Of a stretch of DNA of 64,000 nt, positions 1,524 through 56,233 are shown piece after piece. This DNA is from Aureococcus anophagefferens (lineage: Eukaryota > Sar > Pelagophyceae > Pelagomonadales > Pelagomonadaceae), in contig NW_008705581.1 in assembly GCF_000186865.1 (NCBI RefSeq), forward strand, positions 104,021 to 168,020, in the 5' to 3' direction. The notes below the pieces were generated by a model that saw nothing but the letters and a program-made list of their open reading frames with translations, made no database searches and was not told where the DNA came from. The translations under genes were made by a program, and so were the position numbers. Position 1 is the stretch's first letter; every line of letters starts with the position of its first letter.

Positions 1524-3830
1524 CTAGGCCGGCCCCGCGAGCGCGCCGAGGATGATGGGGTCCGCGAGGTTGTCGTCGACGCGCGCGGCCGCGGCGGCGT
1601 CGAGCCCCGCGGGCTTCGCCGCGAGCCGGATGATGGGGTCCGGCCGGCCGTCGACCGTGCAGTAGTCCGTTTTCAGGTCCTCGGGCGCGCAGGGCCGGAA
1701 CAACAAGTCCTTCGCCGTGCCGAAGTTCCAGCGCGCGAGCGCGAGATCCGGGTCCGCGTCGTACTTTCCGTCGTCGAGCAGCCGCAGGCACCGCTGGTCC
1801 AGGTCGTAGATGAGCGGCAGGCCCGTCGGGATCTCGACCTCGTTGACGCGGTCCTCGGGCACGGCGCAGAGCTTCATGAGCAGGCCGCGGATCGCGTTCT
1901 CCGACGACGCGATGAGCACCGTCCGGTTCTCCAGCGACGGGCCGATGACCTCCTCGAAGTAGGGGATGGTCCGGTCCATGCAGTCCTTGAGCGACTCCGT
2001 GTGGGGCACCTTGCGCGCCATGACGAGCTGCCTCGCCGATATGGTGCGGATGATCGACTCGCCGAAGGAGTAGCGGACGTCGTTGACGTAGCGCTGGTAC
2101 CGGTCGTCGTTGCCCGGGTACTGGGGGCTGAAGGAGCTCGCGCGCGGCGGCCGCACGCGGTAGGACCGGCGCCACTCGCGGAACTGGTCCTCGCCGTGGA
2201 GCTGCGCGATCATCTTCTTCGACAGGCCCGTGAGCGCGCCGTACATGCGCTCGTTGAGGCGCCACGTCTTCACGATGGGGATCCACAGGCTGTCGAGCTC
2301 GCTCAGCGTGATCCAGGCCGTCTCGATGGCGCGCGACAGCCAGGACGTGTAGACCATGTCGAGCTCGAAGCCGTGGGCCCGGAGGAGGCGGCCGGCGAGC
2401 GACGCCTCGGCGCGGCCCTCGGGCGCGAGGCCCGCGTCCTCCCAGCCCGTGAACAAGCCGAGCTTGTTGTGCTCCGTCTTGCCGTGGCGCAGGATCACGA
2501 GGCACCGGTCCGGCGCGCGGCCGCGGGCCCCCGGCGGCGCCGCGACGTCCGCGCGCGCGCGCTCGCCCCCCGGCACGCCCATGTAGAACCCGCCGTCGAC
2601 GGGGTCCGCGACGCCCGCCGGGAAGAACCGCGCCTCCTTGGCCTTGGAGAGCGTCGCGTTGAGCTGGTCCGAGTCGCCCGCGAGGTCGATGAGCTTGCGC
2701 TCGAGCTCGAGCTTCTTGAGCGCGCGCACGGAGAACGTGTCGGGCGCGGAGAGCGCGCCCGGCACGCGGCTCTTGAGCTCCGACTCGGCCTGGAGCGCCG
2801 CGCGCAGCAGCCCCCGCTTCTCGAGGAACTCGCCGCGGACCTTGGCCTGCGCGAGGTCGTCGTCGGCCGGGAGCGACGAGCTCTCGAAGGGCTGCACGTC
2901 GAGACGGTAGTCGCGCGTGCGCTCGAACTTGTAGACCAGCGGGATGCCGTTGGGGATCGACACGGACGTGATCTCGTCGTCGGAGATGCCGTCGATGTGC
3001 TTCACGAGGCCCCGCAGCGAGTTCCCGTGGGCGACGACCATGACGTTGCGGCCCGCGAGCAGGTCCGGCTTGATCTTGGAATCCCAGAGCGGCAGCGCGC
3101 GCGCCATCGTGTCGGACAGCGACTCCGTCGCGGGGACCTGCGTGCGAATCAAATCTTCACCCCGACTTCAATGCGAGCGTCATCGAACGGATTGGACCGC
3201 GCCGGCCGGCACGGTGCCCAGGTCCGCGTACTTGCGGTCGCCGCGGTCGTCGTAGGCGTGGGACCCGTCGGCGGGCATGGGCGGCGGGAGATCCTCCAAG
3301 CCGTGGCGGAAGGCCTGCACCGCGGCCTCGCCGAGCTCCAGCGCCAACCCCGGCTTCGACAGGCCCGTCAGCGCGCCGTAGTGGCGCTCGTTGAGGCGCC
3401 AGGACTTGAAGACGGGGCTGTAGACCTTGCCCAGACCGCGCAGGAGGATCCAGCAGCTGCGGATCGCGCGGCGGAGCCGCGACGTGTAGGCGACGTCGAC
3501 GACGTACCCGGCCTCCAGCAGCAGACGCGCCGCGTGCTCGACCTCGCGCTCGCCGCGGTCGGACAGGTCGACGTCGGCCCAGCCCGTGAAGGTCGAGTTC
3601 GCGTTCCACGTCGACTCGCCGTGGCGCACGAGGATGAGCGTGCCGGGCTGGCGGCCGAAGAGGCGGCGCTGGATGGACGGATTCTGGCGGTGGCGCGCGA
3701 GGGCGAAGCCGTCGTCCTCGATCAGCGACTCCGCCGCCGAGGAGCGGATCGACGGCGTGTGGACGTGCGATGTCGGCGGCGCGAAGGCGTTTGTCGTCGC
3801 CAGCAGCGCGAGAAGGCAGCGGTCCATCAT
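1524..3830 (-). CDS. Two-domain cofactor-dependent phosphoglycerate mutase, plastid-targeted
   Basis: The model joins 3830..3213 and 3137..1524 (743 residues). The start is MMDRCLLALLATTNA, a signal peptide followed directly by FAPPTS. This is the ASAFAP-type junction of heterokont plastid precursors, so the enzyme is inferred to act in plastid glycolysis (2-/3-phosphoglycerate interconversion). Domain 1 has the catalytic RHGEST at residues 69-74, WRLNERHYGALTGLSK, and the second histidine in VVAHGNSLRGLV (His243). Domain 2 has RHGKTEHN at 423-430 and WRLNERMYGALTGLSKK, but its second-histidine motif reads IASSENAIRGLL (about 614-625), so the histidine is replaced. Domain 2 may therefore be regulatory or altered in activity. 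The only intron is a 75-nt remnant of an introner. An in-frame GTG seven codons upstream was rejected as the start. Confidence 0.88.
3138..3212 (-). mobile_element. Truncated family-A introner forming an intron (copy A1)
   Basis: On the gene strand the 75-nt intron ends with about 62 bp that match the 3' end of full family-A elements (…TTGAAGTCGGGGTGAAGATT…CACGCAG). The 5' two thirds of the element are missing. The donor is GT inside GTGCCGGC, and the exon after the acceptor starts GTCCCCGC, a 6/8 match, consistent with a decayed 8-bp target duplication. Splicing is in phase 0 and rejoins YADLGT to VPATESL, as expected for the mutase fold. Confidence 0.75.
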
Positions 3831-4137
3831 GTGCGCACTGGGTTTAGCCACAGAGTTCCGCGCGCGCTACCTGATCTCCGGCCTCAAGTTCGTCGACGGC
3901 ACCTGGACGTCCAAGGCCCGCGCCCTCTCCCACCGACTCGAAGACGACGCGCGCCGCCTCGCGGACCGCGCCGCCCTCGCCACCCTCACGACCAACCTCC
4001 GCTGCGACGGCTAGGGGGCGGCCTCCGGCCGCCGCCTGGCTCGGCTCGCCGAGGTACCCCACGATCCCCCCTGGATAAGCGCCCACAGAGTTCAGGTCGG
4101 CAGCGCCGCGCCGCACGCCTCGCCGCCGGACGATGCG
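3831..4137. other. Intergenic stretch with a weak plus-strand open frame
   Basis: This lies between the start of the phosphoglycerate mutase gene and the coiled-coil gene. A plus-strand frame ending at 4014 contains a plausible peptide (RARYLISGLKF…, then a charged helix-like tail), but it has no convincing start and overlaps the mutase 5' end. It could be a terminal exon fragment. No function can be stated. Confidence 0.2.
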
Positions 4138-54275: not shown

Positions 54276-54585
54276 CTTGGCGGCTAGCGGCGGCGCGGCG
54301 CCGGCGCCGACGAGCAGCCCCGAGCTAGCGCAGCCCAGGTGCCGAAACAGCAGAGAGATACTTGAGGGCGGCGCGGGCTGGGCGAGGCAAACCTTTTGAT
54401 CGCTGTGGCGAGTAGCCGCTCGCAGCCGCTCAGCAGACGAGTTTGACGGCCACAGCGCTCGTCGCCGCCCGATCGTCGCGCCCCCGCGTTCGCGACCGCA
54501 CCGCGCCGCCGCCTCGCCTCGCGCGCGCGCCGCCGCCTACCGCCGCCCGCCGCCGCGACCCGTGCGCGGTCCGGCGACCGAGACC
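54276..54585. promoter_or_regulatory. Shared promoter of the STPGR gene and RUVBL2
   Basis: The 310-bp spacer lies between two divergent start codons. It is less GC-rich in the middle (about 54330-54440). No recognisable core-promoter motif can be claimed. Confidence 0.4.
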
Positions 54586-56233
54586 ATGGCCGACGTCGCC
54601 ATGCCCGGCGCGTCCAGCGAGGTGCGCGAGGTGACGCGCATCGAGCGCATCGGCGCCCACAGCCACATCCGCGGCCTGGGCCTCGACGACTGCCTCGAGC
54701 CGCGCCAGGTGAGCCAGGGCATGGTCGGGCAGCACGGCGCGCGGAAGGCCGCCGGCGTCGTGTACAAGATGATCAACGAGGGCAAGATCGCCGGCCGCGC
54801 GATCCTCCTCGCGGGCCGCCCGGGCACGGGCAAGACGGCCATCGCCATGGGTCTGGCGCAGGCCCTGGGCGAGGACACGCCCTTCACGTCCATGGCCGGC
54901 AGCGAGATCTTCTCCCTCGAGATGTCGAAGACCGAGGCGTTGACGCAGGCGTTCCGCCGGTCCATCGGCGTGCGCATCATGGAGGAGACGGACATCATCG
55001 AGGGCGAGGTCGTCGAGATCCAGACGGACCAGCCCAACGCCGGCGAGGCGACCGCCCAGAAGACGGGCCGCGTCACTTTGTGTACCACCGAGATGGAGAC
55101 GGTCTACGACCTCGGCGCGCGCATGATCGAGGCCATGCAGAAAGAGAAGGTCACGGCCGGCGACGTCATCTCCATCGACCGCGCGTCCCACAAGGTCACG
55201 AAGCTCGGCCGGTCCTTCACGCGGTCGCGCGACTACGACGCCATGGGCCCCAGCGTCCGCTTCGTGCAGTGCCCCGAGGGCGAGCTCCAGAAGCGCAAGG
55301 AGGTCGTCCACACGGTCTCGCTCCACGAGATCGACGTCATCAACTCGCGGGCCCAGGGCTTCCTGGCCCTCTTCGCCGGCGACACGGGCGAGATCCAGGG
55401 CAGGAAAAGAGAGCGAAATTCCCAACTTCAAAGGCTCCTATCTCGGCCGTTTTCAACTCGTTTCGGCTGATTTTTGGACGAGCGATCATCTCTCGGAACG
55501 GTCTCGAAGCGTGCATGATTTTCCGGAACGCGCGCGCGCCGAACACTCACGTTGAAGCGACGTTGAATCACTATTTCCCTGCCCAGGCGAGATCAAGGCC
55601 GAGGTCCGCGAGCAGATCGACGCCAAGGTCGCCGAGTGGCGCGAGGAGGGCAAGGCGACGATCGTGCCCGGCGTCCTCTTCATCGACGAGGTCCACATGC
55701 TCGACATCGAGTGCTTCTCCTGGCTGAACCGGGCCCTGGAGTCGGACCTGGCGCCCGTGCTCATGGTCGCCACGAACCGCGGCATCGCGAAGATCCGCGG
55801 CACGCAGTACAAGTCGCCCCACGGCATCCCCATCGACCTGCTGGACCGCCTCATGATCATCTCCACGACGCCTTATAGTGATGCGGAGCTCAAGAAGATC
55901 CTGACCATCCGCTGCGAGGAGGAGGACGTCGAGATGGAGGACGACGCGCTCGACCTGCTGACGCGCATCGGCGCGGAGACGTCGATGCGCTACGCGATCC
56001 AGATGATCATCACGGCGTCCCTGGTCGCCTACAAGCGCAAGGCCGCCCTCGTCGAGATCGAGGACATCAAGAAGGTCTACTCGCTCTTCGTCGACCTGAA
56101 GCGGTCGACGCAGTTCCTCATGGAGTACCAGTCCGAGTTCATGTTCAACGAGATCGCCGACGACTCCGAGGACGAGGAGAGCGACGACGACGACGACGAC
56201 GACGACGAGGAGCTCGCCGACGCCGACGCCTAG
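54586..56233 (+). CDS. RUVBL2: Reptin / RuvB-like 2 AAA+ ATPase, introner-interrupted
   Basis: The model joins 54586..55387 and 55587..56233 (482 residues, slightly longer than usual because of an acidic tail). The Walker A is GRPGTGKTA (77-85), followed by [20 protein letters not shown]. The OB-like insertion ([10 protein letters not shown]) comes next. The Walker B is LFIDEVHML (298-306), followed by [20 protein letters not shown] (sensor 1) and [13 protein letters not shown]. The RUVBL1/2 heterohexamer works in INO80, SWR1, TIP60 and R2TP complexes. The DEVH form and the [19 protein letters not shown] segment point to Reptin rather than Pontin. The introner inserts 14 codons after the last OB segment, phase 1, and its removal restores [15 protein letters not shown]. 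Confidence 0.96.
55396..55586 (+). mobile_element. Family-B introner, copy B5 (191 bp)
   Basis: The exact duplication is GCGAGATC at 55388-55395 and 55587-55594. It is a GC-AG intron, phase 1. The ends are CAGGGCAGGAAAAG and TTTCCCTGCCCAG. Confidence 0.95.

Follow-up and report, generated by a model that had tools for sequence, protein, structure and literature searches.

Introner elements of Aureococcus anophagefferens were reportedly described by Huff, Zilberman and Roy in Nature in 2016. In the excerpts of later studies cited here, the introners of this species are about 210 bp long (PMC9481584), carry one splice site and co-opt the other from the target duplication (PMC10228655, PMC9860276). 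The introners of Symbiodinium microadriaticum likewise have inverted repeats, an element-borne 3' splice site and a duplication-borne 5' splice site, but this is a different lineage and the duplication is 4 bp rather than the 8 bp found here (excerpt of PMC9860276). According to the same excerpt, introners of a related alga, Aureococcus sp. MAG TARA_AOS_82, also generate an 8-bp duplication; unlike the elements described below, however, they hold both splice sites inside the element and leave 12 nt in the transcript (PMC9860276). The duplication-donor mechanism is thus already known in A. anophagefferens. Our main finding is a confirmation, because that mechanism is established for this species; the cited excerpts describe short non-autonomous transposons with a duplication and inverted repeats, inserted in both orientations, and the basic mechanism is identical.

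The window (the whole 64-kb stretch of DNA that was analyzed), which belongs to A. anophagefferens or a close strain, contains 15 elements of two families (A1 to A10 and B1 to B5), at the positions given in the preliminary description. The introns that they would form are as follows:

3138..3197, minus strand: A1, truncated; 60-nt intron with an element-internal GT donor, in a phosphoglycerate-mutase-like gene
13568..13778, minus strand: A2 intron, duplication copy GCTCCAGG plus element
16969..17168, minus strand: B1 intron, GTCGGGCA plus element; antisense end-type
21978..22188, minus strand: A3 intron, GCCGCGGC plus element, in an EXS-domain gene
36693..36903, plus strand: A4 intron, GCGACGCC plus element, in an RSN1-type transporter-like gene
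38534..38744, plus strand: A5 intron, GTTCTACG plus element, in the same gene as A4, within RSN1_7TM
40504..40703, minus strand: B2 intron, GCGGGAGG plus element; antisense end-type
43095..43305, minus strand: A6 intron, GTCCTCTT plus element, in glycine dehydrogenase
43627..43837, minus strand: A7 intron, GTCTGCGG plus element, in glycine dehydrogenase
44455..44664, minus strand: A8 intron, GCTACCTC plus element, in glycine dehydrogenase
48786..48991, minus strand: A9 intron, GCACCCGG plus element, in a NeuB-like gene
51379..51579, plus strand: B3 intron, GCGGGCCC plus element; sense end-type
52940..53114, minus strand: A10 intron, GCGAGGAC plus element (copies match at 4/8 positions), in a PG-rich-repeat gene
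53254..53453, minus strand: B4 intron, GTGGGCCG plus element; antisense end-type, in the same gene as A10
55388..55586, plus strand: B5 intron, GCGAGATC plus element; sense end-type, in a RuvB-like 2 gene

Each intron was placed individually. Thirteen of the 15 consist of the upstream 8-bp duplication copy plus the element, start with GY and end with CAG; their two duplication copies match at 8/8 positions in 11 introns and at 7/8 in A2 and A9. A10 keeps this geometry (8 + 167 nt), with diverged copies. A1, of which about 60 nt of element are left, is the exception to the duplication rule: its intron starts at GTCCAATC, within the element-aligned stretch, and its donor is an element-internal GT. 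The earlier proposal that all 15 introns equal duplication plus element therefore holds for 14, A10 among them in spite of its diverged copies, and fails for A1. Its donor tally was recovered with the same assignments, namely, nine GC (A2, A3, A4, A8, A9, A10, B2, B3, and B5) and six GT (A1, A5, A6, A7, B1, and B4). A version of A10 with three extra bases after CAG was rejected, as the public open reading frame P0241 and related proteins show those bases to be coding.

We are highly confident that the 15 elements are introners, i.e., short, non-autonomous DNA transposons that have terminal inverted repeats and duplicate 8 bp of their target; the duplication would supply a GY donor and the element a CAG acceptor. 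This reading draws on features of the sequence: the duplications, the element ends, the strand-specific GY, the reading frame, and the proteins at the junctions. On the gene strand the element ends in CAG and would thus provide the 3' splice site. The 5' splice site would be the GC or GT with which the upstream duplication copy begins; the remnant A1 would use its internal GT. Splicing, presumably by the major spliceosome in the living cell, would take out the element and one duplication copy and leave the other copy exonic. Because exactly one copy leaves with the element, the original coding sequence would return in any phase. The reading accounts for 14 of the 15 window copies (not A1) and for the genome sample.

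In the genome, 190 exact A 32-mers and 683 B 32-mers (at most one mismatch) were found, and controls gave 0. All 80 genome copies resolved by script would take one splice site from the element and the other from the duplication, and in all of them the duplication starts with GY on the coding strand. Among one-way B left ends genome-wide, 362 of 369 have GY (197 GC and 165 GT) and 7 do not. The strict GY start had been flagged earlier as worth quantifying. Since GY makes up 19.3% of coding dinucleotides (window background), 14 GY starts out of 14 would arise by chance with a probability of about 1e-10. GC accounts for 54 to 60% of the GY donors counted because it is plentiful in coding DNA; per available site, GT is still preferred and is used 2.4 to 2.9 times above the supply prediction. 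With respect to dinucleotide supply, the phases of GT introns follow (P = 0.35) and those of GC introns depart weakly (P = 0.046); we therefore claim no separate phase rule. Duplication positions 3 to 8 have no visible consensus, so the donor may be chosen mainly by its distance to the element.

Insertions without GY on the coding strand would, in our reading, be lost by selection. The GY rule might instead reflect targeting of insertion, e.g., transcription-coupled, rather than splicing selection after insertion, an explanation that we consider unlikely, although it deserves to be weighed. It is favored by the coding context of all 80 resolved copies, compared with 73.5 to 83.1% of random positions, an excess for which a simple filter acting on random insertions does not account, and by a slight enrichment of RC at duplication positions 7 and 8 (25/84 versus 20.6%, P = 0.043), which hints at a preference for palindromic targets. 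However, whichever way the element is oriented, GY tracks the coding strand; this is impossible for a transposase reading DNA alone and agrees more with a splicing filter than with a target preference at the DNA level. The preference for GT over GC relative to supply is expected of a spliceosome, and the acceptor end is conserved where its mirror end is not: in family A, all 45 ends retain the A of the acceptor, and 7 of 37 show a variant mirror base (P = 0.0027).

The element ends would also determine orientation. Family A, found 31 times in sense and 23 times in antisense, can be used both ways because both of its ends read CTG inward; only one end of a B element does, so B can be used in one orientation. 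With the search pattern used, full-length B copies comprise 251 and 229 of the two end-types with one acceptor-making end, at most 5 with both, and 0 with neither, and all 34 copies examined lie in the orientation that matches their end-type. Rather than stemming from separate source subfamilies, the two types could have arisen if terminal bases changed after insertion under acceptor selection. At the gene 5' end the second base of the terminus varies and so mutates readily, and support is good for few branches of the B tree (of 31, 2 are starred and 21 open). We nevertheless regard this as improbable, given that end-type requires 2 changes on a tree of 34 interiors versus 10.1 for shuffled labels (0 of 500 shuffles as low) and that no full-length copy found with the pattern used has neither acceptor. 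In A4 (z = -3.7) and A7 (z = -2.1), a stem is predicted that starts at nucleotide 9 and closes with the final nucleotide; the folding of B3 and B2 is not better than that of shuffled sequence. That RNA structure selects the donor would be a guess.

Two further elements in the window have no acceptor on either strand:

18287..18637, no strand assigned: D, 351-bp element with 8-bp duplication GTCGATTC and ends CAGTGTGGGA...TCCCACACTG; flank coding score, 0.05
46408..46644, no strand assigned: C1, 237-bp element with 8-bp duplication ATACGAGC and ends CAGGGGAGCG...CTCTGCCCTG; flank coding score, -0.14

C1 lies upstream of the glycine dehydrogenase start (46255). A duplication-plus-repeat scan with loose limits gave 133 rows, of which only the three with CAG...CTG ends were used; all three of these elements are in low-coding DNA. 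Most of the remaining rows, which were not counted, resemble known copies or GC-rich chance pairs. A change from CAG to CTG (read inward) would create an AG, and with less confidence we infer that an inward CTG replacing CAG at one end turns such a MITE into an introner. We tentatively suggest, as an idea that may well prove wrong, that the second base of the terminal repeat is a switch between MITE and introner: elements with CAG...CTG ends would stay in non-coding DNA, one CAG-to-CTG change would give a one-way introner and two a two-way introner, and the B subfamilies would have arisen by changes at opposite ends. Huff et al. 2016 aside, the papers searched contain no earlier report of the lock between B end-type and orientation or of the canonical-ended C and D elements.

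Both a target duplication and terminal inverted repeats, as in DNA transposons, are present. Members of the hAT superfamily make 8-bp target duplications, as do other superfamilies, and their terminal repeats begin with CAG. The 8-bp duplication was found in these elements; C, D, and most B copies (at their gene 5' end) start with CAG, and A starts with CTG instead. The hAT transposase domain PF05699 had 0 matches in this genome, but also 0 in 14 control genomes. A scan of viral contigs found no A end and a single 21-base match to the B end, without an element.

At the junctions, coding frames were found separately on either side; on the coding strand, the intron length that they require equals the placed length modulo 3 in 13 of 15 cases, and the frames flanking A10 and B3 also agree with their corrected intron ends. 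Proteins support 10 of the 15 junctions (A1, A3, A5, A6, A7, A8, A9, A10, B4, and B5). The product spliced at A6, A7, and A8 corresponds to P0121, an uninterrupted public open reading frame of 1,002 amino acids, with six substitutions and none at the junctions; that spliced at B4 and A10 equals P0241 at 649 of 649 residues. Both are uninterrupted open reading frames of unstated origin and may be intron-free alleles rather than transcripts. Alignments to PDB proteins are gapless across the A1, A6, A7, A8, A9, and B5 junctions, and relatives are gapless across those of A9 and A10; A3 and A5 each lie inside one Pfam domain. The A4 protein was searched against Pfam, and its junction falls outside the best domain stretches listed. 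A search with the B3 protein gave 0 matches, as did a Pfam search with one exon open reading frame of the A2 gene; a Pfam search with six raw open reading frames gave one match. The earlier statement that removal restores the coding sequence agrees with these proteins and with the fit of the flanking frames to intron length. Splicing of these introns is thus predicted from frame, homology, and uninterrupted public open reading frames.

A donor inside the element (CTGT|GTGG), with 12 extra bases, or four codons, staying in the mRNA, is very unlikely. This layout is the one reported in the cited excerpt for TARA_AOS_82 (PMC9860276), the 12 nt would preserve the frame, and the internal GT (element positions 5 and 6) is kept in 37 of the 37 A ends in which the search pattern does not fix it, so that conservation alone cannot rule it out as a donor in A. 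However, an internal donor does not explain why the duplication starts with GY on the coding strand, 0 of 30 B copies have a GT anywhere in the initial 15 nt of the element as read on the gene strand, and A6 in the window begins with CCGCGCGG, which lacks the CTGT|GTGG donor. Moreover, P0121, P0241, and the RuvB-like 2 and NeuB relatives have no four-residue insert at the junctions. That the insertions stay in the mRNA as ordinary gene-breaking transposons is scarcely credible: by eye, P0002, which comes from short public contigs, continues into the A9 element, as expected of unspliced genomic DNA, but retention is contradicted by the frame, the GY rule, and the junction proteins. Moreover, of 11 copies checked, 8 hold an in-frame stop and the other three (A6, B1, and B2) cause a frameshift, although coding signal persists downstream.

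In 2011, A. anophagefferens was reported to have 39.6% GC-AG introns and a standard U1 5' end, and the study, in the excerpt cited, called the origin of these introns an enigma (PMC3033335). Many of them could derive from GC donors borne by duplications. Despite the standard U1 5' end reported there, 5' splice sites that share no visible consensus other than GY appear to be functional at scale, so hundreds of natural cases are available for testing how donors are marked. The end-type lock in B, together with the low-coding CAG...CTG elements, reduces the question of how an intron maker arises from a transposon to a one-base experiment.

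The genome comprises 49.05 Mb; the window, with a G+C content of 71%, takes in 64 kb of its contig C21. The fifteen introners of the preliminary description were all present and form two families: A (A1 to A10), of about 203 bp with the ends CTGTGTGG...CCACACAG, and B (B1 to B5), of about 192 bp. A stretch of about 92 bp is common to the A and B interiors in inverted orientation, with 71% identity (36701-36903 versus 51387-51579), a likeness that points to related families. A direct repeat of 108 nt (8078-8185 and 8297-8404; 80% identity; spacing of 219 nt) is unrelated to either family, and a run of 50 Ns at 27976-28025 is probably an assembly gap.

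When each intron was placed, the donors were nine GC and six GT, as proposed, and all fifteen introns ended at an element-borne CAG. The companion claim, that every intron consists of the upstream copy of the 8-bp target duplication plus the element, held for 13 of the 15 copies, in which the two duplication copies agree at 8/8 positions (11 introners) or 7/8 (2 introners). A10 retains the geometry with diverged duplication copies (4/8 match). A1 departs from it: this copy is a remnant, and its GT donor falls within the sequence that aligns with the element. In A6 (43095-43305), the duplication match spans 13 nt and extends into the element, the 5' end of which is CCGCGCGG instead of CTGTGTGG. 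A codon model trained on ORFs of the window (third-position G+C, 91.5%) was used to assign the coding strand and frame of both flanks. The intron length modulo 3 demanded by these frames agreed directly at 13 of the 15 copies; A10 and B3 fit once their ends were corrected.

That removal restores the coding sequence was borne out by proteins at 10 of the 15 junctions (5 of the 9 GC donors and 5 of the 6 GT donors). A8, A7, and A6 interrupt a glycine dehydrogenase gene, whose conceptually spliced product aligned without gaps at all three junctions with PDB 6i34 and 6i33. It differed from P0121, an unbroken ORF in public data, at six of 1002 residues, all of them away from the junctions. The product of the gene carrying B4 and A10 was identical to a public sequence, P0241, across all 649 residues, and the motif spanning the A10 junction is kept in relatives. 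Both P0121 and P0241 may derive from transcripts or from alleles that lack the introns, and under either reading the joined sequence is genuinely coding. B5 lies inside RuvB-like 2, where the 80-residue surroundings of the junction are free of gaps, and the A9, A1, A3, and A5 junctions were also supported. The protein search for B3 found no match, and the domain stretches listed for the A4-containing protein do not cover A4. The conceptually spliced NeuB-like protein containing the A9 junction (48786-48991) was 99% identical to the public A. anophagefferens protein P0001, which lacks 43 residues directly upstream of this junction that several relatives have; because of this gap, the search listing shows 86%. 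The gap perhaps stems from a gene model in which the GC donor of A9 was overlooked. The organism is taken to be A. anophagefferens or a closely related strain.

Genome-wide, an exact A 32-mer was found 190 times and a B 32-mer (at most 1 mismatch) 683 times; the reversed patterns of both had no matches in the genome. From 90 loci cut out as a sample, 2 without a recognisable end and 4 repeats were removed, leaving 84 copies (54 A and 30 B, including 3 window copies), of which 80 had their ends, frame, and coding strand assigned by script. In 80/80 scripted copies, the duplication began with GY (i.e., GC or GT) on the strand that the codon model scored higher, with strand calls that were sometimes close (0.20 versus 0.19 at L034). 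At loci L050, L066, L079, and L083, GY was present after the ends were re-placed by eye, with the strand switched in two. Relative to the gene, 31 A copies were sense and 23 antisense, and 10 and 20 B copies, respectively. The mirror motif, RC at duplication positions 7-8, occurred in 25 of 84 copies (20.6% expected).

Donors in the sample were 50 GC and 34 GT (A, 29 and 25; B, 21 and 9). B copies with a CRG left end, on which side the donor lies, gave 197 GC, 165 GT, and 7 other among 369 ends genome-wide. The abundance of GC donors, earlier considered worth quantifying, extends beyond the window, at 54% of GY donors for these one-way B ends and 60% for the sample. Coding DNA supplies GC and GT as 15.0% and 4.3% of dinucleotides, and the GC share expected at equal use is 78%; GT is therefore used more per available site, by 2.9-fold (B ends) and 2.4-fold (sample).

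Duplication positions 3-8 did not depart from coding composition (p 0.19 to 0.85), another GY lies within approximately -6 to +16 in each of the 84 copies (mean, 3.9; four with provisional ends), and a standard U1 5' end was reported for A. anophagefferens in 2011 (PMC3033335, in excerpt). Donor choice must therefore depend on where the site lies relative to the element. The predicted folds of A4 and A7 contain a stem that runs from nucleotide 9 to the final nucleotide; those of B3 and B2 were no better than shuffled sequence. RNA structure is a possible donor mark.

One finding sits less comfortably with the rest. All 80 scripted copies lay in a coding context, whereas by the same score the share of random positions was 73.5% in the window and up to 83.1% in the locus flanks. 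If insertion were random and unspliceable copies were then lost, some copies should remain in non-coding DNA; a bias in insertion itself is therefore probable too.

The gene-strand element end was AG in 45/45 A and 27/27 B ends tabulated, all reading CAG except one A. Within family A, the terminal A was conserved in 45/45 and the base mirroring it at the 5' end was variable in 7/37 (p = 0.0027), as expected if selection acts on the acceptor only. B copies, read in their own orientation, fell into two end-types: CRG...CAG, sense in 12/12 cases, and CTG...CYG, antisense in 22/22 cases (two of the latter strand calls made by eye). Among full-length B copies genome-wide, we counted 251 CRG...CAG and 229 CTG...CYG (with one double count seen among listed places), 0 CRG...CYG, and 5 CTG...CAG; one of these 5, at L090, is an antisense-type copy whose CAG is supplied by the neighbouring duplication. 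A tree of 34 B interiors (terminal columns excluded), with few well-supported branches, had 2 end-type changes versus a mean of 10.1 after shuffling (0/500 as low), and by this measure the end-types look like subfamilies.

A scan of the window and loci for 8-bp duplications with inverted repeats added three elements, two of them from the window and the third from locus L058, each with an 8-bp duplication and CAG...CTG ends.

C1, 46408-46644: upstream of the glycine dehydrogenase start; coding score, -0.14
C2, L058:216-451: coding score, -0.03
D, 18287-18637: coding score, 0.05

C1 and C2 are 96% identical. All three elements have no acceptor and lie in low-coding DNA (scores near zero), and their interiors show no close relationship to A or B. 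We infer tentatively that an introner arises when an A at the second position, counted inward from the end, is replaced by T, at both ends in A and at one end in B; for non-coding DNA, this proposal draws on three canonical elements only.

Huff et al. in 2016 reportedly described introners in A. anophagefferens that recruit a duplicated splice site and occur in either orientation. Their findings in this species are retold in PMC10228655 and PMC9860276. Excerpts of published reports give GC 5' splice sites at 0 to 50% per introner family across species (PMC9860276), GC-AG introns at 39.6% in A. anophagefferens (PMC3033335), and an introner length of 210 bp in this species (PMC9481584). No earlier report of the B end-type lock, in which nearly all full-length copies have one acceptor-making end and those examined sit in the matching gene orientation, was found in the portions of the literature searched, which reached few subscription papers. 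With the mechanism credited to Huff et al. 2016, the introner finding is thus already known, and a modest new layer is added to it here.
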